This document shows positions 10,343 through 55,810 of a stretch of 55,810 bases of DNA, piece by piece (the first letter of the stretch is position 1; each line of letters begins with the position of its first letter). The stretch is from positions 1 through 55,810 of IMG/VR virus record IMGVR_UViG_3300020395_000012; one strand, given 5' to 3'. Under the pieces are notes generated by a model, which worked only from the letters and a program-made list of their open reading frames with translations, ran no database searches and had not been told where the DNA came from. A program made the position numbers and the translations under genes. The DNA is from a virus.

Positions 10343-11875
10343 TTAGAACTCGATTACGATTTTAATGTCTTCTACTTGGTCGTTTGCACGACTAATGGAT
10401 CTCCTATTATCTATGTAAACAACCTGACCGCTATTTGATTCGATCTCAGGTTTTGCATATCCATTATTAAATTTCATACCCAAGTCATACTCTGTGTTGT
10501 TAATAGTTCTTGAAGAAGAATTAGGAACAGCAGGGAAGTTAACATCAGGAGCACCAGCAGCACCAGAAGTAGCACCACTAATAACATTAGAACCATCGAA
10601 TTCATTCTGTGTACCAGTAACTTCAGGGAAGATACCGTCTACAGCATTCTGATAGTATTTCAAAAGCTTTGTAGTTGCGTTCCATGATATAACACGAGCA
10701 CGAGCAGTAACGTTAGTACCACCAACAACTCTTGTTTGTGTTATGATTTCATCAGGAACATAGTTACCTTGGAAGGTAGGAGCAAATATAACTGCCTTAC
10801 AAGCAGAAACTGTTAGGTCTGATATAAGTTCAGCAGTACCATACTTAAGTGGGTTTGTAATTAACCCAATTCTTCTGTAGTCATTATCTACAGGGAAGTC
10901 ACCTGCACCCTCATCATATGAGAGTTTAGCATTAATCATTGTTCGGAAAGCACCGACTTCAACAACTGAATCATATCCATGTCCATTTGGAGGAGGAATG
11001 ATTACATCAACTTGTCCACCAGTACCAGTACCGATACCAGTTATGTTGTCTACACTGATTTTACCGAATGTATATCCAGTACCACCAGATGTTACAGTTG
11101 CAGAGATGATTTTACCACCATCAACGACAATACTAACGCGACCTCCAGTACCATCACCATTAATAGCGACGTTATCGTACGTTCCATTGTTGTATCCTGC
11201 TCCAGCAGCGTTAATTACTACAGTATCAACTTCTCCAGAAACAGCATTCGTCTTTACGGCTGCGTTAGTGAAGACGGGCATATAATCATTAGAGAAGAAT
11301 TTAAGGACGGAAGCAACGGGGATGGTGTACATATACTTCCAACGATATCCATCACCAGTAGTGACAATGGAAGTAGAAGTACCAGTAGGCTCAACTGTAG
11401 AAGGTTTACCATTAGGATCAGACGGTGAAGTGCCATTATAGATGCACTTATATACCTGATACTGAGAGTTTACAACATAAAAGTCAGAGTCATATAGTTT
11501 AGTAGCACCTGAGGCAGCAGTTTTACTTGGAGAATAGTCATGACGATACATGTCATAGGTGAAACCTAATCCACCAGTAGTTTGTTCTGGGGAAACCCAG
11601 TCAATTCTACGAACAACCTGTACGGTATCAGAAGCAAGGACTCTCTTCAAAGATACCATATCATCATAAGAACCCGAAAATTCGGAGAATGAATCTACTG
11701 CCTGTGGAGGCGAGTTTTCATTATCCCAAGATTGCGGTCTTCCGATAAACAGATACACCCTATCACGATTGGCACCAGCAGCCGTATCGGATTGAGTCGC
11801 ATCTGGACCTTCAAGTGCCTTAATGAATTTTTGCGCTGAAAAAATTCTAAATTGATCTGTTAATAGAGCTGCCAT
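10343..11875 (-). CDS. gp8: Baseplate wedge protein gp8
   Basis: This 510-aa protein carries T4 gp8 landmarks: a YLFIGRPQSWDNENSPP stretch near residues 42-58 (T4: ITFGRSEPWSSNEN), VRRIDW near residue 100 (T4: PRRDW), GDGYRWKYMYTIP near residue 173, GLITNPL near residue 325, and a C-terminal IDNRRSI...NDQVEDIKIVIEF matching T4 YMENRPP...DQTEEINILFTF. T4 gp8 is 334 aa; the extra length is largely a middle insertion with Gly-rich GYNNG/GGTGYTF repeats and an ATARARVISW module. gp8 dimers sit in the baseplate wedge with gp7 and gp10. A CATAAATA late promoter precedes it. Confidence 0.93.
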   Translation of the reverse strand: MAALLTDQFRIFSAQKFIKALEGPDATQSDTAAGANRDRVYLFIGRPQSWDNENSPPQAVDSFSEFSGSYDDMVSLKRVLASDTVQVVRRIDWVSPEQTTGGLGFTYDMYRHDYSPSKTAASGATKLYDSDFYVVNSQYQVYKCIYNGTSPSDPNGKPSTVEPTGTSTSIVTTGDGYRWKYMYTIPVASVLKFFSNDYMPVFTNAAVKTNAVSGEVDTVVINAAGAGYNNGTYDNVAINGDGTGGRVSIVVDGGKIISATVTSGGTGYTFGKISVDNITGIGTGTGGQVDVIIPPPNGHGYDSVVEVGAFRTMINAKLSYDEGAGDFPVDNDYRRIGLITNPLKYGTAELISDLTVSACKAVIFAPTFQGNYVPDEIITQTRVVGGTNVTARARVISWNATTKLLKYYQNAVDGIFPEVTGTQNEFDGSNVISGATSGAAGAPDVNFPAVPNSSSRTINNTEYDLGMKFNNGYAKPEIESNSGQVVYIDNRRSISRANDQVEDIKIVIEF

Positions 11876-38400: not shown

Positions 38401-41245
38401 ATTTTTTAACGTTATACAACCAAGTTGTAAGATCTGAAGTCGTACCAGTACCACCTAACTTAGAAACTGTTAATTTATCTCCAGGTAAGTAGTAAGATCC
38501 AGTATCTGTTAGATTAGTTTGCTGTGCATCAACAATACCAACAACATTCATTACAACTTCTTGTAATGTACCCTTATTCAGGTAAACTTTGAAGTTTGAA
38601 GTAACTTGTGTAGCAGAATCCCAATCTTCAACAACACCATTTACAGAACGAGTACATTCGATAAACTGGTTAAGTGATTTTTCCTTATATTGTACAACTT
38701 CTGTCGTAGTACCCGAACCAATAACAAACTCACCGTTCCTTTCTGGCCAACCAATGGTAGAGTCAACCGTAATAATAGAGTCGGTTGCACTCAATGGTTC
38801 AGCAAGTTTTGTCTTATATGGAACAGTAAATGAACCAGTAATAGTCTCTTCAGACAATACAAGTTCAAAAATTTCTACTTCAGACGTTTTAATTGAAATA
38901 TAATTTTCTACAAGAGCACTCGCTGCTTTAATATTAGGGTCTGATATATCCTCTTCTTGTACTAATAAAGCATCTTTAATATCAACAGAATTACCAGAAA
39001 CCTTAGTAGCACGAAGAATAGTATCAATAGACCAAGTAGCATCAGATGGTTTGATAATCTGATCTTTTGGATAAGATATACTTACAGTTTCACCATAAAG
39101 TAACTTAAAGAGATAAGCAATACTAAAAGATGTACCCTTTGAAGAGTAGAAATCTTTAATAGTTTTAATTGCTGTACGAACGTCAATTTTCTTATAATCG
39201 AGTTCAGGTACATCAGGAAGGAACTGTTCTGTATATTTGTCTAAAAGTCTCTTTATAAACAGTTGGTCTAAGCACTTAACTGGAGTATTAACAGTAGCTG
39301 CAGCAGCAGTAGTTGCACTAGAGAAAACTGCATTACCATCTTCTGTATATGAAGTAATTCCTGAAGCAGCACGAGCACATCCTTCAAATTGTGCTTTAGT
39401 GTATTCTTTTCCTTCCTGTGTTACAGTAAAACCAGTAATTTCCTTTAAACCAATCTCAGCAGATGCTTCTGCAGCAGGTGGAGTCTGAATAACGATAGTT
39501 GGAGGTGCAGCAGCAGTATAACCAGTTCCAAATGCAGTTATATTAATATCAGTGATTCTACCATTGAATATTGCAGCAACAGCAGTTGCTCCAGTACCAC
39601 CTATTGAATTTCCTTGTGCATCTACTCTTCCATCAACAATGTATACAGATGGAATATCCTCATATCCGCTACCACCATCTAAAAGTTCAATATTAATTAC
39701 ACGACCATCACCGTCAACAGACGTTTGAAGTATTTGAGCACCAACTGGATCAACAATAGCAACCCTTGGAACTGTTGTATATCCTTGCCCTGCATTTAAT
39801 ACAGTAATTGAAGCAAGAGTACCGTCTGCAGCAAGGTTTGCACGTAATGATGCTTTAATAGGGTTAGTTCCTGTTGGTTCATCGACATATATGACTGGGG
39901 CAGTAGTATAACCAAATCCTACATTAGTAATGGTTGGAGCAGCTGCAAAAGAACCATTAGTAATGGTTGGAGGATCAATTGTAGCACCTCCAGGCTGTCT
40001 AAATGTTAATCTTGGTGTAAATGTATATCCACTACCTGAATTAAGTATTTCAAGTCCACTTACAGCACCATTAGTAACAGTTGCTTTAAGTTTTGCCTGT
40101 GTTGCACCTGGTTTAGTTGGTGATTGTACTTGAACTACTGGTGGGTTAGTGTCACTATAACCTTTACCACCATCTAATAGAGAAACTGATTTAACACCAT
40201 TAACTAATGCATTAGCTGAAGCACCACTACCTAATACAGAACTAATAGTTACTTTAGGAGGATACTCAAATCTATATTCTGATCCATTAGTATCAGTCTC
40301 AATGCTGGTAAGAGTACCAGTATCACTAATACGTGCATATCCAATAGCACCAGCTCCAAATGAAGGTACAGGTGCCTCAATAGCATATAATGATAAGAAT
40401 CTACCGTTTAAAGGGGCAGTTAAGAATATAAATTGATCTCCATCTATGAAGAAATCAACTTTAGGAACTAAAAGTCTATTATCATAAATTGCAATAACAT
40501 ATTCATCTACAATAGGTTCATACCTTTCAGCATTCTTTGTAATAGTAAATTGTCTCTTAGATTCACCAAAAGAATTAGATAAATTATCTATTGCTACAAT
40601 TGGGTTTTCAATAAAACCACTTAAGAAATTAATATATGTCTGATCTGATCCATCTGAAGGAGTTCTTGTTCTTGGAGCCTCATTAAAGACGATATTAGTA
40701 CCATTAATGGTATAATCAACAACAGGAACTAAAATTTTACCATAAACACTTACAATTAAGTGTTGTGGTGTTATAGGAGCAATAGGACTGTCTTGAGATG
40801 TTAAAGGAAACTGCGTTGTTGTTCCATCAAATGATAAAAGAGGACTTGCAAGACCTGTCCACTTAAGTTTTACCTGATCATATGAAATACCTGGACTTAA
40901 TGCAATATTAGGTGCAGAAGTCGTCTTTTCATAGTAAATTATCTCATCACCAATTAATACAGATCCATTATTATCAAGAAATTTATCAACACTCTCTACA
41001 ACAATAGTATTATTCGTCGAATTTATTGCTTCTACAACTTTAGTCGAACCATCAAGTATCCCAATATCTAACTTATCAATATCAAGATATTGAAGGAAGT
41101 TATTGAGTATATTTTGACCTAATCCTGTTTTCTCTTGAGATCTATAATAATACTGTATAAACCTATTAAATAGGGGATATTCAGACTCCAGAAAATCGGG
41201 AGTCTGACTCCTTATAGCTTGAGAAACCTTATTAATATTGCTCAT
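17429..41245 (-). CDS. Giant 7,938-aa baseplate/fibre protein in gp7 position
   Basis: One uninterrupted frame of 23.8 kb lies between gp6 and the gp8 group, where T4-like phages encode baseplate wedge gp7. The N-terminus (SNINKVSQAIRSQTPDFLES, then YPLFNRFIQYYYRSQEKTG) resembles gp7-position proteins of cyanophages. Domains seen, with rough residues: GGxGYT repeats 320-600 and 1140-1350; a YHYH motif (GWAFDGNPIYGPYG) ~1430; propeller-like repeats ~1850-2215; LamG-like domains ~2280-2420 and ~4045-4230; 19 copies of a C-x3-D-x4-H-x-YPR module ~4290-6385, interrupted by a helical insert ~4380-4500; helical segments ~6385-6880; a carbohydrate-binding-like module ~6980-7170; and a GGSGYTTRP C-terminus. 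It starts 4 nt after gp6. A wedge-anchored, multi-lectin host-contact protein is inferred. No frameshift is apparent. Confidence 0.88.
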   Translation of the reverse strand: MSNINKVSQAIRSQTPDFLESEYPLFNRFIQYYYRSQEKTGLGQNILNNFLQYLDIDKLDIGILDGSTKVVEAINSTNNTIVVESVDKFLDNNGSVLIGDEIIYYEKTTSAPNIALSPGISYDQVKLKWTGLASPLLSFDGTTTQFPLTSQDSPIAPITPQHLIVSVYGKILVPVVDYTINGTNIVFNEAPRTRTPSDGSDQTYINFLSGFIENPIVAIDNLSNSFGESKRQFTITKNAERYEPIVDEYVIAIYDNRLLVPKVDFFIDGDQFIFLTAPLNGRFLSLYAIEAPVPSFGAGAIGYARISDTGTLTSIETDTNGSEYRFEYPPKVTISSVLGSGASANALVNGVKSVSLLDGGKGYSDTNPPVVQVQSPTKPGATQAKLKATVTNGAVSGLEILNSGSGYTFTPRLTFRQPGGATIDPPTITNGSFAAAPTITNVGFGYTTAPVIYVDEPTGTNPIKASLRANLAADGTLASITVLNAGQGYTTVPRVAIVDPVGAQILQTSVDGDGRVINIELLDGGSGYEDIPSVYIVDGRVDAQGNSIGGTGATAVAAIFNGRITDINITAFGTGYTAAAPPTIVIQTPPAAEASAEIGLKEITGFTVTQEGKEYTKAQFEGCARAASGITSYTEDGNAVFSSATTAAAATVNTPVKCLDQLFIKRLLDKYTEQFLPDVPELDYKKIDVRTAIKTIKDFYSSKGTSFSIAYLFKLLYGETVSISYPKDQIIKPSDATWSIDTILRATKVSGNSVDIKDALLVQEEDISDPNIKAASALVENYISIKTSEVEIFELVLSEETITGSFTVPYKTKLAEPLSATDSIITVDSTIGWPERNGEFVIGSGTTTEVVQYKEKSLNQFIECTRSVNGVVEDWDSATQVTSNFKVYLNKGTLQEVVMNVVGIVDAQQTNLTDTGSYYLPGDKLTVSKLGGTGTTSDLTTWLYNVKKLISVNTVTFGGVNDQSATLTCANPHGLLVGDQVTVYGANPIIYNGTFLVTSRDSEYTFQYQLPQPATVIPQGNILVSVDLNKGKSDNSAVLNAIGSYTTNVQNSFFDTTHTYVASTGIPNYKIGPFPGSALLPGNQRKLNRFPKVPTTISTKNTIDSGPVGTWVNGVSIWAYKSKLSKTFGAITGINITNAGAGYDAASPPTITISGGSGSGATANVTVDGSISEVTVTAGGSGYTSSPLVSIVGGGGAGAAATAIITKGVVSSILINQGGSGYTSQPSITIVGGGGTGAEGTASVRGPIQSIAITDGGASYTSNPAVTLSSGSGAVAQAIVTNGRIISIAIISAGSGYTTAPEVSVQGAGFGAVARATIDTDGENAGRVTGITIVNKGINYVQGTTIINLTSVGQGATFTPNVFQWTYNLQATSTFDSAKGTVFEGFNNQYGGEYAHLSNPQKLRYILGDNLFENASGNIKEQETQLNHSPIIGWAFDGNPIYGPYGFSDPTNQASSITKLNTSYRLKTNLVYDATTNPYPARTAGPLLNSEAAGNFVEDYEYVFGLGDLDQYNGRFCKTPDFTDGRYCYFVTIDSTEDGNPVFPYVLGPSFNSVVDKWNLVDAATQQNIPAGVVRYRDPYENVDIDVTRTPNASTNALTTEAGEILLFDPEDVNRDGVIDAEETANPTQLFEEAPLQLFDYFPTVKFDSKVDIEVETITKFEDASVTGFTVENPGINYQVNDRLVFDNTDTDGDGVSARVSRIKGESVSTYGFENVSGSNYGTLKTDVPHNLIAGDSVFIDYTPIMDNTNKTFKVRQFKGIEQIVISQTGSGYNEEIPPTIIIDGDGTQGALQAVVSSVGAIDTVNITNSGSGYTTNPRVILSHPQIYKKADYYVSKIENNNYVKINDCKVNIKKEVFTCGKTLDADGNTVGFVAKLSATGVKEWQKTLESTAGLKYVEFERLYVDGDNIWVVGNNKPNSSLLDAYNPDIILCKYVQAENGLSATLSFQKAYAGISGATRSDNVTAIQKYSDTRYIIGGYTNTNSAAPFDAFIASIDTTGNFSVKRKLASATGNEKITDLIIDGTDVYFTMEVSATDTAQDINQCVGKATIGTSVIEIQWIKEFSNATYSFLDSTLCIDEFKEIYLTASCRMKSDDTTRDSFWVGKVNSTDGTLIWNYRYLAPGREVHVTTSSEIDLFGDLNVAFTRKNNTNTQTTVDTVKIGYDGKIKNHTTNNFNINNIEGVTAHALDVDESGDVHVFGQTQWNRNEFIYDFANNEQVDITGHHVLTSVGATNAITYTGNLAKIYGYNPAGSNSTWVNSYLSVPGTTLKETLAGDWTLEFMIYKNGSESQTLSQGAQTLCGIGGARDATGGLWLGYDNGSGELQLVITNNTTQLISGSGQSSSQTNMYADNSWQFVALTKNGNEFKAYINGIAVITGTLSNTALGTKNIYFGNQIGFGSGATDFAQSKQGQFYIDNIKLRNRFVTPTVPTDVVTLPPTASYSQTFDWVDDAWFTSYLNRYDNIDYVGWGIKVDKNAESGRIGTYSERTNTKLGFVRTAVTPVTGSAITVSATGYSLGDAGLQTLDFDDTTTTMSQDTETLTYTQDIWGSRTATVPSPGSQKLKVSAVVKDRYYFKVTDTVKIDNIQILTVNQAFNFTVGAKLQLYTGSTFKNSGYIIRVDNDNNKIYVAVNNNLWSDDLNTGQLSTVQFSEQSTYNIVGPIPNDINEIIGYTFAQVVNQTPGTFIIPLSSYPLEVGGANNLHTFATFKPYADADYSIRIDEVSGSSPYIVGSVVTINSGDISYNADYSQATIVNLTGVLKITLVANLTKILQVTAVANSDEVYVITATKHYLNAGEMLYIDGNPERTSGGVVYDEYDGAFPVDTVVSSLEFTYKLPQAAITDPETSTPGNVSIFVKSPVLKMYYGHQYLFDLSHSSLVGGNLSFAKDNLYKLEYSFNSIERIGTPGVTGQGQPTPTVKLKVDQSVVTNISYYFDPSRTGDDSPVIPGSYLDVVDSPYKGTFQISSTAGQTITTGPDIFKFPLQNEPEGSADVSRTSYSTSSLKAVGSINNIRIVNSGGFYTKLPVVTGIVSTRKIERVQINAPGTEYAVGEYNNVPIAGDGEGGLVSITVADGTDDEGTTIPGQIQKVDVIDPGKGYTTATIDINSISGILGSGLTGSGAELVVVIPSAGTGASIFTKGTNVGKIKKLKNNNFGYDYPHDYTLRPEITFPINAQLTSTSILSSITVTDPGSGYSLPPAVVITGGGGTGAVAEATIKNGRLDQIFVKDPGAGYSSTPTINLKSSFNYVVNLDLGLLQFAYPHGIVNGSEVTVTVTDTGDGADFPLAAGATGRLNASTTYFAIAGTANSLEPDQLKLAITASNAALGDALSFVNAGEGRQSVLTESFGGAATANVITSTFLEGELIYQGDSLENATAQGYVSTNSGWQVGPRILKIVDYTGSFTENEKVTGVISKSSGTISDLKIAKGVLEIGSITKTTGQFIDDVGKPSEIIQKIQDSYYYQDFSYAVKSAVSISDWKEILIKNVHPASFKVFGELNLNEYGFVPNKETFFQLTKSVELAQESIVPNIQNFALVEPIYSDFNNTEVLFRQKRLTSSENILTSVVQRVDDISNLFDGERISFPLTVDGGNVVANANQLMIVLNGVVQNPKTSFSIQQDSIVFSEPPQPPASVKYANITISQKSTVALTFTNQSGIYPSLGNVLTGISSGAKLTVTTVVGTTINGYIIEGTFIVGELCTVSATGFSANLATNTAVSNIGLFTFGEQITNLTGDTAKVEQINLESGAETPVAKVRYTIGLSTVSFEVVPLTGDPGPVPAGTFTATKNYQFGSEIFRVDSITDGSSSTTIGVTRGQLGTTAQSVQENTPIYGTDISVTNTLTLSKTAGTYQSTPGLFDIQLNDVILGASSGVVATVTATAAYQDPTTNEFIGQVNISEGSSFFGLLFNRITSQTYPNVVLDDISKSQISIVDFTDNATAFDSKFPSNERINNYTIPYDNAVGTLVENENIRNYKIEYGNSNGDFIAGEDGRVRKLSFTNRIGDGFFNTGQVIRTRDTKAEVIGFNQARNIVYLGKIGRCKANGEDYFDFTFENAAAIDTAQKKFGTASLEFAAADYIVNASTDEIAFGSGAFTIEMYIRPATASVSGTADIFDTRASSANEVAFRLYLEAGQVRVNVNNSDLVTSGATTISANTWTHIAYVKSSTTGKIYINGVEAGTGTDSTTYVAKPIRIGADWNGANGFVGHVDEVRVSTTNRYTGAFTPVAGIFQGDANTKLLLHCDGNDGVNYIDDWSGVEGFTEGEFFNNDAILATVRDVAGKHIYNGSTAVNAITITANSVQKDVTDATYDPNTGDLVLTIGSHSFTTSDTLKIGANKLSFTCSKDNHQTSHTYPRVTDPAYDTTLAITAVSGTTLTVNVGIANNGFNKNTQRYINAGDLVLANLDFIAQEVVWLMKKRFPNFTVKGGSINCADDIVDVLKSVVDDIRNGSNSHIWDASAFYVDRTANPIQLKEIKSEVTESLWAFKKTQEMVQYIGTNTLWEVQGDHGLTQTTDTTITDSTTNSLTSITPTSAVYDPATGELTLTKSSHGINGASSLTASNAAYVANTGVLTITSNSHGLSNGDRIKLVDDSLTFTCSMDQDRSEHTYPRISDEASSGYLEVSGVTTNTFNVNVGPSPIKSFTPTSSTYDPETGWLKLGIGDHSLEVGTNVKIANNSLKYLCSMGGTTEYKTYPRTTDPIYNDSVEIVSDGVHSTATNASYTPTTGDLTITSGTNLTPTLASYVARTGIMTLTVPNHGMVLGDKVKIEDGAITFTCDMDDNATLHPYPRSSDPLSGDFINIANVTTNTFDVNVGASPLVSFNPSAVTYTPTTGDMVMTIGSHSLTVGTSVRFEPASLTFTCTKDSNATEHKYPRTTDPVYDAATTITAVTSTSITVNVGTANDATAGTHTFVPKAGTLTPTSVTYNPTNGLLAFTVAGHGMLAGQKIKIADNSLTFTCGKDNNATNHTYPRTTDPISGKFIDIQSVTTNTFTIQVLDVVPSTNTTTHSFVSAAANCVTRAVVTTGGDYTHTFVSARNNSVLSDKHGYSVGDKIRIAEKSLTFTCEKDNNATDHAYPRSTDPFYRRWLRINSLTDKTFTVNVGVSPDKSAHTFKSAYPNGIVKQDGSISIDVGKSPTVKHDMTNAAYTPANGNLVLTVGTHNLNVGQTVRLVDRALTFTCAEDSNASNHSYPRPFIDEFTPSTATYSGTTGLLVFTVNSHGVRVGDWIKIDDNSLTFTCQLDNNQTNHTYPRSTDPVSGKWLKVSAVTTNTFTVQVLQTIPSTNTSTHAFVSAVTNCIKQKRDRAYDAPIEISAVGTSNKTATGATYAPTTGVLQITSNGHGLTAASEITPTGAVYVPATGVLTLTKSSHGYTNGDRILIKEGALTFSCNKDNHESQHSYPRATDPSYLKWLTVQNVTTNTFDVNIGVANDQSTHAFISATTNGVMKANSQVKFDADSLTFTCTRDSNATNHTYPRATDPVANQWTPIVASTTNTFDVNVGITGFGDFAHTYVSATSNGIKVQDGTITLNVNTSSNTTTHAFVSAKTGGLIVGGNYDHTFIDANNTYTPSTVSYTASTGNMVLTVNNHGFKVGEHIKIADGGVTFTCAEDSNATNHAYPRSTDPISNRFVPITAVTTNTFTINVLQGTSPTNTTTHAFVSATTGCITRSVVSTGGDYTHTFVSAKANGIHKMGDAIKLDAGSLTFRCHIDGKRTDHAYPRVTDPAYTSALRVRKATTNTFTVDIGKSLGDTIDQPYTPTAATYDPATGNLVLTIGSHDITDDDSITIDDNSLTFTCAMDNNQANKTYPRTNKDEFSAKAIPVASVGTSSLTPSTANYEPTTGILRITSASHGLVAGDRVKFDADAITFTCAQDSNGSNHAYPRVTDPTYNRWLDIFAITADTFEVNVGISSNITAHTFVSATSGGVKRQTGTITVNVNPAGTNQTFTPSAATYDAYTGDMTLTIGSGHGISVGSSITVANNGLTFNCTMDGGSSNKTYPRSTDPYGNLKSIPVKHVGHTHHTPTNVSYTPATGAATITLANHGWSNGDWVMIVDNALTMTCSLDGNQTDHSYPRATDPYQNKWMQISNVATNTFDVNFGISSDTTTHTFKSFATKGLRRKTGVITVNVGSSPIIGHEVSAASFTPASGLLVLTIGDHNLTVGTSIRIANNSLTFTCAQDSHGSNHTYPRANGQGGASADDPAYNDAVNITAVTGNTITVNVGTSSNTTAHTFVSANSDFTATNAAYNPTTGVMTITVANHGFVNGEKVKIADNSLSFTCALDGNTVTKTYPRKSDPVSGKWVTISGVTTNTFDVQVLDAVPSTNVMSHAFQSATANGIKRAVISSGGDYTHTFVSATTNAVAFLPQSAHTFVSAKYGAVKKVKNTHQLVSIANNAVSVLDYSWADCTDVYTTIDNLMDILVDTVTQANLSPAVDHLATVTKLTPKHDFLGGKVSAYYEVPFPISYHDATNDIIVTNQIDETTRNRFRDAAALIRANTGPIVDKTSHDMLTLYPDLVLEMPRNVGGTQDGTLQCKTDLTLLLEEFCKDIEDGGNLNSTNVGKFYLGTNDVLLHIRLQVFQSVYAHNRLAHYMKQAITGDLTYDNTDDIIVGDWGITQDGGGCANVKSAIDTLVTSVNDIIAPTDNDYAIAADRLYFNRKYIAEEITGLITAEFTYVLNSVNYNAHTYPEGALGEGKCQRDIKLIILGIISDLQTGGNNSTVAAMEYYLTSAGNLNHVETELLATVYGIEQIKIIGEHALRNRLVALNGTSTAQQYVAQHTDEAPYTDSLSPVAIEDVVRRLEELTDLAVDILAPAKMEGRGAAKNLLYNRNYYKEEITTLVNSQFGAGAWTYNTFIDQLVDDTVHDIITTDMTKNSVARNIAIGDITGNFKVGETVTSDGGGTAIVREYNIDTEFFVCSTVTGTEWKDYDVLTGNDSGATATIDPAGIGNSYKWYDSVSNVKTLGSARLITSNVSGQLAGTNLLTNPEQFSINWTGTEVSFTDDALLAPDGTLTADKLIASSTNADHTIHRVYNLSAYDTFDDDTIKWDANNQRFDEGASGTSPTQQYTYSVFLKKGEYDNARVMLSLNYGTAAVQNAFFDVALDTGVVGTLFTPQNGVTGDAYGVVPLGDGWYRAYITLTFSFGFAEMRAQVYVKNASGAQTYAGNNSDGLYVWGAKLNKNALDPYQSQDAKIFYSDAEYNIKNYALDLMETYMSQALNNGLTSPSPNSGFYKAFYDEAAAWYDADSASAIVRYCLDIIRQQLTVDSSYTNYISVNGVSLPTKTYGTRSIPQGVGGGIQNADYMYGLLSNTYGELENLTLNEGKIVQVFQRFRIDGDITDGPYTMGETVAKQGAPSITGVVYGFWSDANYKYLDVKVTAGPWAITDNVVGAENSTTAQISAIESRIHVIDLKGEFEDNVPFKGYTSGATATPTGFLRREAATLDNTGGTLTVDTATLTGTFETTAVVYPESSRQYLDVVKYAGLDIGVGARIASNGYIRLGVTVLSGLNNFTVGNRLYKVVSGIQDQNTYGIITAVDLDNSFIYMQEYQGTITNGDVVGDYGAGLSNPVGYASINTKVTTAGAAAAVVQDIRTVGVNRRLYLSSIKGTFDPKDSIKGPDGYASVIEDIVSLKARVKRSFKGFDGTTTNFKLTQQNGTPYLPDPAGHLLVFINGILQPPGASNAYTAFSDEIQFQEAPDLGASFTGFYVGKLRQLDDISFEFDSLRQSFNLKRNDVFYSLTLTEGVQSSTIRPENNIIVSLNGVIQEPGIGFEIVGSRILFSEIPRVGSTFVAFSYVGSEADVDAAEVVPPVEPGDFIDIQGETSDREVAVIESSNSLITFDYLGSVFGSGAIANANLTSGTLKDVQVTSGGSGYTTRPTVRIDSISGFEGAIRALVGVGGVEVSNPGSGYANPTIAVETSVPDDWTAPDLSLYGEEPVDPETPL
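22090..28390 (-). repeat. 19-copy C-D-H-YPR protein repeat inside the giant gene
   Basis: I count 19 copies of a module with consensus SLTFTC-x3-D-x-N-x2-x-H-x-YPR-x-TDP, usually followed by ITxVTTNTFxVNVG and THxFVSAxxNG and preceded by YxPxTGxLxLTxxxHGxxxGxxVKI. The first copy (~28100-28390) is set apart by a helical insert; the other 18 run from about 27700 to 22100. Some copies are also very similar in DNA, for example 22700-22760 against 23620-23680. Copies 6, 9, 12 and 19 share an extra VLxxxPSTNTxTHxFVSA block, three of them followed by a GGDYTHTFVSA segment, giving a higher-order period. Confidence 0.9.
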
Positions 41246-48880: not shown

Positions 48881-48909
48881 ATAATACATGATTTCCATGT
48901 ACTTATCAA
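48881..48909 (-). promoter_or_regulatory. Sigma-70-type promoter for the 76-aa gene
   Basis: On the minus strand TTGATA (48909-48904), 17 nt, then TATTAT (48886-48881). The predicted start leaves a leader of about 26 nt before the ATG at 48848. It lies in the 126-nt gap after the 66-aa gene, where I see nothing else coding. Confidence 0.75.
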
Positions 48910-48974
48910 CAACCCTTGTGCCACTTTGTTGACTGTCACACCTTATGTGTTACTTAGTGGCATTACAGTTTGTG

Positions 48975-51418: not shown

Positions 51419-51446
51419 ATAATAACCGATTTTGAGGCACTTTCAA
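51419..51446 (-). promoter_or_regulatory. Sigma-70-type promoter before the 84-aa gene
   Basis: On the minus strand TTGAAA (51446-51441), 16 nt, then TATTAT (51424-51419). The predicted start leaves a short leader carrying AAAGGA before the ATG at 51391. It would drive the genes from 51391 downward. Confidence 0.6.
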
Positions 51447-51453
51447 CATTTTG

Positions 51454-51477
51454 TGTGCCACTAATCTAATTGGCACA
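51454..51477. repeat. 7-bp perfect inverted repeat at a gene end
   Basis: TGTGCCA and TGGCACA flank a 10-nt spacer and span the stop codon of the 56-aa cysteine-rich gene. A third copy of the GTGCC arm lies just downstream (near 51436-51440), so alternative hairpins are possible. There is no U-tract, so it may be a weak terminator or an RNA-processing or stability hairpin. Confidence 0.5.
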
Positions 51478-53166: not shown

Positions 53167-53188
53167 AGTGTGCAACTTATCCAACTGT

Positions 53189-53395
53189 CTACTCTTTTTC
53201 TTCTGCTGCTGAGTCCCATGCGTCTGACATGAGATCCCAGTCATAGTTCTCTGGTTCTGTGTCTGTTGTATCAAATTCAAGGAAATAATAGTCCAAATTA
53301 ATACCATTTTTTGAGCATACTTCCATCACTTTCTTATATGCTTTTTTGGAAGTAAAGTCGATTGAGTGATACTCAGTTTCAACAGTAAATGCCAT
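53189..53395 (-). CDS. 68-aa hypothetical acidic protein
   Basis: MAFTVETEYHSIDFTSKKAY continues with KKVMEVCSKNGINLDYYFLE and ends in an acidic tail (DAWDSAAEEKE). The small alpha/beta N-terminal part and acidic end are typical of phage accessory proteins. No family recognised. It is the last gene before the terminator at 53143. Confidence 0.7.
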   Translation of the reverse strand: MAFTVETEYHSIDFTSKKAYKKVMEVCSKNGINLDYYFLEFDTTDTEPENYDWDLMSDAWDSAAEEKE

Positions 53396-53837: not shown

Positions 53838-54155
53838 TTATCTTAAGTATAGATAACCACCTGCCCAGTCTGCTCGTTGAATACACTCATTAAATGAATT
53901 ATCATCTAATAAGTTATACCTAACGTGACGTGCTGGTTTGTTATAACCTGCTGGTTTAAATACATCACCTGACTTAATGTCAACAAATGCATGTACACCA
54001 CCTTTAACTTCAACAATTTTATAGTATTTGCGTCCTTCTTTGATATCGAAGTTAACGCAATCTGCTGTTGAGTTAGTATTATAATCCTGCTGCAATCTCT
54101 GTACTAATCTATGAGTTCTCTCATAAACTTTAGTAACAAATGGTGCTTTAGGCAT
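53838..54155 (-). CDS. 105-aa conserved phage protein, function unknown
   Basis: This protein has VYERTHRLVQRLQQDYNTNS, a beta-rich middle (YYKIVEVKGGVHAFVDIKSG), DVFKPAGYNKPARHVRYNLL and ends ADWAGGYLYLR. The 'VHAFVDxKSGDVFKPAGYxKPARHVRYNL' block recurs in cyanophage small proteins as I remember them, without known role. An AAGGAG site precedes the ATG. A structured leader of ~106 nt lies directly upstream. Confidence 0.8.
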   Translation of the reverse strand: MPKAPFVTKVYERTHRLVQRLQQDYNTNSTADCVNFDIKEGRKYYKIVEVKGGVHAFVDIKSGDVFKPAGYNKPARHVRYNLLDDNSFNECIQRADWAGGYLYLR

Positions 54156-54175: not shown

Positions 54176-54281
54176 TGTATGGAAGAGGTTCGATTTAAAG
54201 ACTCTTTCCACCTGACCTATGCTAACTCGTTTACCGAGTCTAATTAAGATCAGGGATGGAGTCACCCTTGCCTTCCATACA
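54176..54281 (-). ncRNA. Structured 5' leader, candidate cis-regulatory RNA
   Basis: TGTATGGAAG (54176-54185) and CTTCCATACA (54272-54281) form a perfect 10-bp stem closing ~86 nt. On the minus-strand RNA, CUGAUC (54253-54248) pairs with GGUCAG (54217-54212) with one G-U wobble, enclosing ACUCG/CGAGU with a GUAAA loop. A second small hairpin (AGGG/CCCU) and a GACUC/GAGUC match that could form a pseudoknot are also visible. The promoter -10 lies 4 nt before the stem, so the RNA would start at the stem. No tRNA T- or D-arm is present. A riboswitch-like leader for the 105-aa gene is possible; the class is unknown to me. Confidence 0.55.
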
Positions 54282-54284
54282 TGT

Positions 54285-54312
54285 ATTATAGCAATAAAAA
54301 ACCCCCTGTAAA
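54285..54312 (-). promoter_or_regulatory. Promoter whose -35 is the loop of the preceding terminator
   Basis: On the minus strand TTTACA (54312-54307), 16 nt, TATAAT (54290-54285). The TTTACA is exactly the 6-nt loop of the terminator at 54295-54318. It drives the structured leader and the 105-aa gene. Confidence 0.8.
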
Positions 54313-54318
54313 GGGGGT
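54295..54318 (-). terminator. Rho-independent terminator after the 141-aa gene
   Basis: ACCCCC and GGGGGT form a 6-bp stem with loop TTTACA, followed by TTTTTT on the minus strand. It lies 22 nt after the 141-aa gene and overlaps the next promoter. Confidence 0.88.
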
Positions 54319-54340
54319 GTGTGTCAGTTTGTTGACTGTC

Positions 54341-54766
54341 CTAGTTAAATGCTCTGTTGTATGAGGTTTTGATATAGTTAACAACAGTTGATGAATTCTC
54401 AACAACTAATTGATAACCTTTAACCAAATCCTTCCCTAATTCTTGTATCTCATACTCATGAATTGCCCATCTGATTTTAACATCTTCAAGGTAATCTGCA
54501 CGAGATAGTTTAGGTGAATTAGGACGAACTTTAACAGGTTGTTCACCTTTTGCTTCCACTTTTTTGTTTAACTCATTCATAACAACTGTTGCTGTAGATG
54601 GAGTATTTAGTGGAGTAACCTTTTTAGTGGGAGTATCAAGAACTTCTTGAATTTCCTTAATCACTTTATCAACTTGTGCAGTTGATTTGGTTACTTTAGG
54701 TGAACTCTTACGAGTGCGAGTCTTACGAGGAGTTGTCTTCCTTGTTGTTGACTTAGCAACTGTCAT
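54341..54766 (-). CDS. Lys/Arg/Thr-rich protein with histone-like N-terminus
   Basis: I choose ATG 54766 (MTVAKSTTRKTTPRKTRTRK); the longer frame to 54814 would begin inside the promoter -10 region. The first ~30 residues are strongly basic and Thr/Ser-rich, as in histone H1-like or DNA-binding tails. The C-terminal ~50 residues (RWAIHEYEIQELGKDLVKGY and onward) are helical. It is 141 aa. DNA binding, packaging or interaction with nucleoid is plausible; a protein-modification target is another option. A terminator follows directly. Confidence 0.75.
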   Translation of the reverse strand: MTVAKSTTRKTTPRKTRTRKSSPKVTKSTAQVDKVIKEIQEVLDTPTKKVTPLNTPSTATVVMNELNKKVEAKGEQPVKVRPNSPKLSRADYLEDVKIRWAIHEYEIQELGKDLVKGYQLVVENSSTVVNYIKTSYNRAFN

Positions 54767-54794
54767 AAGTACGTTAATTCGTGTGTACCTCCAT

Positions 54795-54822
54795 ATTATA
54801 CATGAAAAAAGCACCCGATCAA
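54795..54822 (-). promoter_or_regulatory. Promoter whose -35 is the loop of the preceding terminator
   Basis: On the minus strand TTGATC (54822-54817), 16 nt, TATAAT (54800-54795). TTGATC is exactly the loop of the terminator at 54805-54829. A GGAGG follows the -10 about 24 nt before the ATG at 54766. Confidence 0.75.
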
Positions 54823-54829
54823 GGGTGCT
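54805..54829 (-). terminator. Rho-independent terminator after the 103-aa gene
   Basis: AGCACCC and GGGTGCT form a 7-bp stem with a 6-nt loop TTGATC, followed by TTTTTT. It lies 34 nt after the 103-aa gene and overlaps the next promoter. Confidence 0.9.
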
Positions 54830-54863
54830 TGTGACAGTTTCTTAACAGGTTGTAATAATGATG

Positions 54864-55175: not shown

Positions 55176-55180
55176 TTAAT

Positions 55181-55207
55181 ATACCATTGATTGAATCCAA
55201 ATGGTAT
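55181..55207 (-). promoter_or_regulatory. 8-bp inverted repeat just upstream of the 103-aa start
   Basis: ATACCATT and AATGGTAT flank an 11-nt spacer, ending 6 nt before the ATG at 55175. A CATAAATA late-type motif overlaps its upstream arm (55204-55211). It could be an operator, or a hairpin that limits ribosome access; both are inference. Confidence 0.45.
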
Positions 55208-55213
55208 TTATGT

Positions 55214-55235
55214 GTGACACTAGGTATACTGTCAC
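55214..55235. repeat. 6-bp inverted repeat at the methyltransferase stop
   Basis: GTGACA and TGTCAC flank 10 nt and overlap the methyltransferase stop codon (55232). No U-tract follows, so it is not a standard terminator; a binding-site role is possible. Confidence 0.4.
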
Positions 55236-55810
55236 AGTAATTTACTTAAACTATCATTAGGTAATCTATCCTGTATTAAGTTACCATATTCCTCATGTAA
55301 TTCACACCCTAAGTAATACCTACCTAACTCTTTTGCAACCATAGCAGTAGTGCCACTACCCATAAATGGGTCAAGAATAATATCATTTTTCTCACTCCCT
55401 GCTAATATACAAGGTGTTATTAATTCAGGTGGAAATACAGCGAAGTGACTACCTTTATAGGGTCTATTTGTTACTTTCCATACACTACGTTTGTTTCTCT
55501 TATCATAGACCATTTTGCGTGGTCTTGTTAAACCTGAGAACTGATTATCTGTGTCCTTAGTGTTATCCATGTTGATAGGTTTGTTACCACCCCAACGTTC
55601 ACCTACTGCCTTCTCTTTAATACTTTCATGGTCATAATAGTAGTTCTTATTCTTACTTAAGAGGAACAAATACTCGTGTGATTTAGTACATCTATCCTTA
55701 ACACTTTCTGGCATTGGATTAGGTTTATGCCATATTATATCCTGACGTAGATACCAACCATCAGATCTTAGTGCAAATGCTAACATCCAAGGGATGCCAA
55801 TTAGATCCTT
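55232..55810 (-). CDS. DNA N6-adenine or N4-cytosine methyltransferase, C-terminal part
   Basis: The frame is open to the window edge, so the N-terminus is missing (192 residues visible). It shows IIWHKPNPMPESVKDR near residues 25-40, then SHEYLFLLSK, and the SAM-binding motif DPFMGSGTTA near residues 147-156 followed by YLGCEL. Motif I lying C-terminal to the WHKPNPMPE region is the permuted (beta-class) order; the catalytic DPPY motif should lie beyond the window. Phage members of this family methylate phage DNA, usually against restriction. Its target sequence cannot be read from the gene. Confidence 0.9.
   Translation of the reverse strand, partial: KDLIGIPWMLAFALRSDGWYLRQDIIWHKPNPMPESVKDRCTKSHEYLFLLSKNKNYYYDHESIKEKAVGERWGGNKPINMDNTKDTDNQFSGLTRPRKMVYDKRNKRSVWKVTNRPYKGSHFAVFPPELITPCILAGSEKNDIILDPFMGSGTTAMVAKELGRYYLGCELHEEYGNLIQDRLPNDSLSKLL

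Follow-up and report, generated by a model that had tools for sequence, protein, structure and literature searches.

In marine phages related to the fragment analysed here, a 24-bp palindrome stands at a fixed distance from a TATAAT-like -10 box, and where a co-directional gene ends upstream a terminator hairpin is often nested between the two. Comparison of several hundred sites establishes this geometry and its conservation, the optional character of the terminator, and the enrichment of hairpin loops that resemble a -35 box. Taken jointly, the features are likely to represent sigma70-type promoters of three parts, in which the palindrome would be bound by a putative activator and a terminator may be nested.

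The window (the whole stretch of viral DNA that was analysed, 55.8 kb) is a fragment whose genes lie almost all on the minus strand. Its predicted gene order, which runs through a DNA methyltransferase, small ORFs of no assigned function, baseplate wedge genes and a 7938-aa ORF, matches the dam-to-structural-genes region of the T4-like cyanophage P-SSM4. The 7938-aa ORF (17429-41245, minus strand) is unusually long, and corresponds in position to a very long virion structural gene, gp7-like, in P-SSM4. The nested terminator/promoter elements sit among the small genes of no assigned function.

Nested elements and their hairpin loops

Two of the elements, (i) and (ii), are both on the minus strand, in the same direction as the genes. 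Element (i), from 54317 to 54285, reads CCCCC-TTTACA-GGGGG, T6, ATTGC, TATAAT. Its terminator hairpin (54302-54317; RNA fold with flanks, -15.4 kcal/mol) contains a -35 hexamer (54312-54307) that consists of the loop plus the closing T-A pair; because the first T and last A of TTTACA are able to pair, the RNA loop is probably UUAC. The U-tract of the terminator (54296-54301) doubles as promoter spacer, and the -10 box (54285-54290) has TGC in front of it, as in an extended -10. The palindromic upstream element, TAGGACAGTCAACAAACTGACACA, occupies 54320-54343 (PWM score 27.8); 36 nt separate the T in its right half from the -10 box. Element (ii), from 54828 to 54795, is built in the same way (GCACCC-TTGATC-GGGTGC, T6, CATG, TATAAT). 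Here the loop of the hairpin (54811-54828) is itself the -35 hexamer (54822-54817), and is followed by the U-tract (54805-54810) and the -10 box (54795-54800); the palindrome, ACAACCTGTTAAGAAACTGTCACA, lies at 54830-54853 (PWM 22.8), again at 36 nt. The spacer between the loop hexamer and TATAAT is exactly 16 nt in both elements (54306-54291 in (i), 54816-54801 in (ii)).

A third fused element, TACCCCC-ATTT-GGGGGTA TTTTCGTG TATTAT, is found on the minus strand at 53165-53134, with the -10 box at 53139-53134 and a loop (ATTT) unlike a -35 box. Its palindrome, GTAGACAGTTGGATAAGTTGCACA, is at 53169-53192 (PWM 17.3; 36 nt). The first-pass annotation had described TTTACA and TTGATC loops, each 16 nt before TATAAT, and this proved accurate for the minus strand. 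It correctly placed a terminator within a promoter and found the two fused elements that it claimed; it overlooked the third, whose loop is not -35-like, as well as the palindromes upstream, 35-37 nt away from the -10 box. Downstream of promoter (i) is a 105-aa ORF (53838-54155, minus strand) with a Pfam match to DUF7717 (PF24835), a family whose function is not known, and downstream of promoter (ii) is an ORF (54341-54766, minus strand) with an N-terminus rich in lysine and threonine and without a Pfam family.

The fusion of terminator and promoter was assessed in loci that had been retrieved through protein homology or an unrelated leader motif, and never through the presence of a terminator. 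Among strict terminators from P-SSM4 and many uncultured marine phages, 75 of 134 have a -10-like hexamer 7-13 nt past the stem, where the -10 is a match to an E. coli-style sigma70 consensus and the host is cyanobacterial. Shuffled sequences averaged 22 (at most 34 in 300 shuffles), and control intervals further downstream gave 2-17, so the fusion is real and common. Matches of at least four of six positions to TTGACA, at a spacer of 15-19 nt, were supplied by the loop in 73 of 211 fused elements, against 35.4 expected when the loop letters were shuffled (maximum 48 in 200 shuffles); since related loci are not independent, separate events are fewer than these counts suggest. The matches peak sharply at a spacer of 16 nt, and 24 elements match at five or more positions. 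The commonest -35-like loops have a closing T-A pair around TTAC, TCAC, ACAC or ATAC (i.e., TTTACA, TTCACA, TACACA and TATACA).

In the majority of fused elements the loop, for instance ATTT, ATTA, TTCG or GAAA, does not match a -35 box. A loop that serves as -35 box is thus a genuine subclass and not the general rule. The initial proposal that the terminator and the next promoter use common DNA is supported, and -35-supplying loops are in excess; the equation of loop and -35 box holds as an enrichment and fails as a rule. In the apparent counterpart of element (ii) at locus L014, the loop is ATTTA; the hairpin and -10 box are kept, and the upstream element is degenerate or displaced. In P-SSM4, the hairpins at 40,536 and 43,413 are nested terminators whose loops are TTTACA and TACACA, respectively. 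In phage P-RSM6 the loop of a nested element is TACAC, but the -10 box, TAAAAT, is weak.

The palindrome and its distance from the -10 box

When the fused elements are aligned, a conserved block appears upstream of the hairpin; it begins immediately past the stop codon of the preceding gene or overlaps that codon. This block is the 24-bp palindrome TGTGNCASTT-N4-AASTGNCACA. The interval from the T of its right half to the start of the -10 box measures 35-37 nt in 94 of the 101 fused elements. The intervening parts vary individually, with standard deviations of 1.7 for the distance between palindrome and hairpin, 1.5 for the hairpin length and 0.7 for the linker to the -10 box, and yet their sum is 35-37 nt in 96.7% of fused elements. 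Permuting the parts among elements leaves 50.6% in this range (maximum 66.3% in 2000 permutations). The parts therefore compensate for one another in length, which suggests that selection acts on the distance between the palindrome and the -10 box. With the palindrome fixed at 35-37 nt, the hairpin loop lands on the -35 position by geometry.

An independent set of viral loci was picked by the palindrome only, requiring neither a -10 box nor a hairpin, and without use of the PWM, which had been trained on the fused elements. The arms are separated by 4 nt in 341 of 361 palindrome orientations (approximately 180 palindromes). At 36 and 37 nt there are 70 and 38 -10-like hexamers, respectively, as compared with about 2 at each other offset, and the 35-37 nt range as a whole yields 115 promoters in 76 loci. 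In these promoters, -35 matches of at least four of six positions peak at spacers of 16 nt (15/115) and 17 nt (25/115). When the palindrome occurs in bacterial genomes, -10 boxes do not accumulate at this distance (9 of 242 orientations among the matches listed, which include no marine Synechococcus or Prochlorococcus record); a host regulon, which was considered, gains no support among those matches.

Two further observations on palindromes were made in passing. In Nostoc-like genomes, cyanobacterial contigs (L223, L228, L294 and others) contain similar palindromes, TGTGACAGTT-N4-AACTGTCACA, without a -10 box at 36 nt; some of these have common flanks, and they are perhaps a different repeat or operator. 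Three IMG/VR loci (L375, L380 and L420) have clusters of the class palindrome itself, with copies about 58 and 115 bp apart, which may be operators in tandem or repeats.

All loci combined contain 413 distinct promoters with the palindrome and -10 box, of which 126 have a nested hairpin and T-tract and 287 do not, so that the terminator is an optional insert between the two. The window itself has three promoters of the plain type, all on the minus strand: at 55178-55236 (palindrome 55236-55213, -10 TATATT 55183-55178; PWM 23.7, 36 nt), at 51419-51477 (palindrome 51477-51454, -10 TATTAT 51424-51419; PWM 22.7, 36 nt) and at 48881-48940 (palindrome 48940-48917, -10 TATTAT 48886-48881; PWM 29.3, 37 nt). 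An upstream gene in the same direction is present for 101 of 117 promoters with a nested terminator, as compared with 141 of 267 without one, which is expected if the hairpin ends the upstream transcript. The two groups are otherwise alike in the position of the start codon, mostly within 40 nt of the -10 box (medians 31 and 32), and in the spacer of 16-17 nt at which -35 matches peak. Strong -35 boxes (at least five of six positions, spacer 16-17) occur in 27 of 126 promoters with a nested terminator and in a smaller share, 22 of 287, of those without. The class thus has the TATAAT-like -10 box of sigma70-type promoters throughout, and a TTGACA-like -35 box at 15-18 nt in a subset.

In several viral contigs (L395 and L400; for example L395:266-289), palindrome-class promoters are repeated, with a strong TTGAC -35 at a spacer of 17 nt and a TATCAT -10. 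Their transcript starts are near-identical (CATGTATGAAAAATCAAACCAC), like duplicated promoter-start cassettes.

A composite scan for the promoter gave 7 matches in the window, one of them the mirror image of a palindrome, against 0.0 expected. The cultured phages differ considerably: P-SSM4 has 12 matches (2.4 expected), S-PM2 has 8 within its first 50 kb (1.0 expected) and Syn9 has 4 (1.8 expected), while T4 has none within its first 50 kb. The Syn9 value indicates that the class is not universal in cyanomyoviruses. On inspection of the feature tables, the strong sites of P-SSM4 and S-PM2 stand mainly before small genes without known function, and not before virion genes.

A structured leader downstream of promoter (i)

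The predicted transcript of promoter (i) begins with a structured 5' leader (54177-54281, minus strand; fold z = -4.8 relative to shuffles) that has a conserved core at 54210-54255. The core, C-UUAAUUAG-stem-GYAAA-stem-UAGNAUA-G, is present in 74 IMG/VR stretches, and is composed of two helices, a GYAAA pentaloop and an invariant internal loop formed by UUAAUUAG and UAGNAUA. Across 41 distinct sequences the helices covary strongly (0.559, compared with 0.155 for shuffled alignments and at most 0.149 when the helices were slid), with 113 compensatory cells. Members are also found at L002, L005, L023, L055, L100, L124 and L142-L211, and the core stands before many unrelated genes. A search against Rfam gave no match above chance level, and a tRNA was considered and ruled out. 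The leader of promoter (i) is apparently a member of an undescribed, covarying RNA motif in the 5' leaders of marine phages. In several members the outer helix starts near the predicted transcript start, from which one might guess at a role in protecting the 5' end of the mRNA.

The core also occurs in a cultured Prochlorococcus phage, P-TIM68 (NC_028955, around 53775; L462), directly before AVU42_gp065, which offers a laboratory system for testing the leader RNA. Separately, positions 150300-150389 of P-RSM6 resemble the window leader by blastn.

Relation to known systems, and proposed mechanism

T4-like phages are said to contain a promoter-early stem-loop (PeSL), reportedly described by Arbiol et al. 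in 2010 and by Comeau et al. In the PeSL, as here, a terminator stem-loop and a sigma70-like promoter share one intergenic cassette among small variable genes. A single compact stem-loop/promoter element of this kind is formed by the 75 of 134 fused terminators, and by the three elements in the window. The internal order differs: the examples from T4 and RB49 have the whole promoter, including the -35 box, after the U-tract, and the -10 box approximately 40 nt past the stem (for RB49, stem, T-tract, and then TTGACA-N16-TATAAT); in the present elements the -10 box is 8-12 nt past the stem, the -35 is inside the hairpin, and the palindrome is on its far side, so that terminator and promoter are nested rather than in tandem. 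We regard the nested arrangement as a probable variant of the PeSL-type cassette, set apart by comparison with the T4 and RB49 examples. One S-PM2 site has its -10 box at 11400, directly after a stem-loop (11369-11391) listed in PMC4503421, where PeSLs are judged too sparse in that phage to explain gene acquisition. A stem-loop placed directly before a -10 box in this way may explain why few PeSLs were reported for S-PM2 (PMC4503421).

In having an activator-type upstream element, a TATAAT-like -10 and a weak -35, the class is similar to the middle promoters of T4, which combine a MotA box with an extended -10. Its upstream element, however, is a 24-bp palindrome centred near -53. The MotA box of T4 is located near -30 and is not palindromic. 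Cyanomyoviruses are without motA and asiA, and the review that records this describes the switching-on of early and middle genes in the marine members of this group as unclear (PMC2984593). As quoted in the same review, Weigele et al. (2007) proposed a putative middle promoter for P-SSM4 and Syn9, and not for S-PM2. That motif is likewise a non-T4 promoter motif of cyanomyoviruses; the palindrome class, which S-PM2 has and of which Syn9 shows few sites, is, judging by distribution, probably not the same motif. The palindrome class appears to be new, although an earlier description may exist in the literature.

We propose that these promoters have three fixed parts, namely a palindrome centred near -53, an often weak -35 and a TATAAT-like -10. 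A putative dimeric protein, of phage or host origin, would bind the palindrome and activate (or, less likely, repress) transcription, and together with the weak -35 would help the sigma70 RNA polymerase of the host to start at the -10 box. Where an upstream gene in the same direction ends, a terminator may be nested between palindrome and -10, the hairpin then straddling the -35 position, with the U-tract as part of the spacer, and presumably ending the upstream mRNA. As the palindrome and -10 box fix the place of the -35, and as the stems are GC-rich, the loop is the only spot for an AT-rich -35, into which selection could write a box such as TTTACA, TTCACA or TTGATC. A polymerase stopped at the U-tract would sit on the next promoter, and could block it briefly or feed it. 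In single-molecule experiments, bacterial RNA polymerase stays on the DNA after intrinsic termination, diffuses, and restarts at nearby promoters (PMC6978380). By analogy, a polymerase that releases its transcript at a nested terminator would be in a good position to start again at the promoter that follows. Extrusion of a cruciform, which would place an upstream TTGACA-like sequence 17 nt from the -10 box, was also considered; it was set aside, since the class consists largely of promoters that lack a hairpin.

The simplest alternative is compaction, in which a terminator and a host-type sigma70 promoter have been squeezed together, the match between loop and -35 is a functionless coincidence and the palindrome is incidental. 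The intergenic regions are indeed very short (median of 48 nt between the stop codon of the upstream gene and the -10 box), and many loops have no -35 match, but compaction leaves the distance from palindrome to -10 box, which is fixed despite the varying parts and even where the terminator is absent, and the excess of -35-like loops over shuffled loops without explanation, and we consider it unlikely. It is also quite improbable, and slightly more so, that the elements are mainly recombination sites for gene shuffling, with regulation secondary, as proposed for PeSLs. Such shuffling has been described in other T4-like phages, according to work cited in PMC4503421, and the same element does stand before many unrelated genes (the 451 ORFs downstream of class promoters fall into 155 clusters). 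Gene adjacency is nevertheless not consistently less conserved at junctions with nested terminators than elsewhere (0.21 vs 0.20-0.25 for other junctions at 60-90% identity), and recombination has no need of a fixed 36-nt geometry.

The palindrome might instead act as a hairpin (CCAGTT-N4-AACTGG) in the upstream transcript, where it would aid termination or protect the 3' end, rather than as a site in DNA. It can fold into a weak hairpin, and in many fused elements is located at or right after the upstream stop codon. We give this reading very little credence, as the palindrome is locked to the -10 box and neither to the stop codon nor to the terminator, a nested terminator is absent from 287 of the 413 sites, and for roughly half of these 287 no co-directional gene ends within 120 nt upstream. 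In addition, the RNA fold of element (ii) does not pair the palindrome as such.

Our preferred reading, of a three-part promoter with a putative activator, can be extended, and here we are tentative and hold the extension to be possible rather than probable: the promoters may form a widespread cyanophage class in which a putative dimeric regulator at about -53 replaces MotA, nested terminators recycle polymerase locally, and the loop acts as -35. By inspection, the genes common downstream of the class promoters, which include a helicase and function-unknown families, contain no obvious DNA-binding regulator. The occurrence of the palindrome-to-(-10) architecture in the cultured phages P-SSM4 and S-PM2 makes this a directly testable promoter class, and provides a route to its putative regulator. 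The nested terminator, in turn, would be a compact natural setting in which to study how the termination of one gene affects the initiation of the next.
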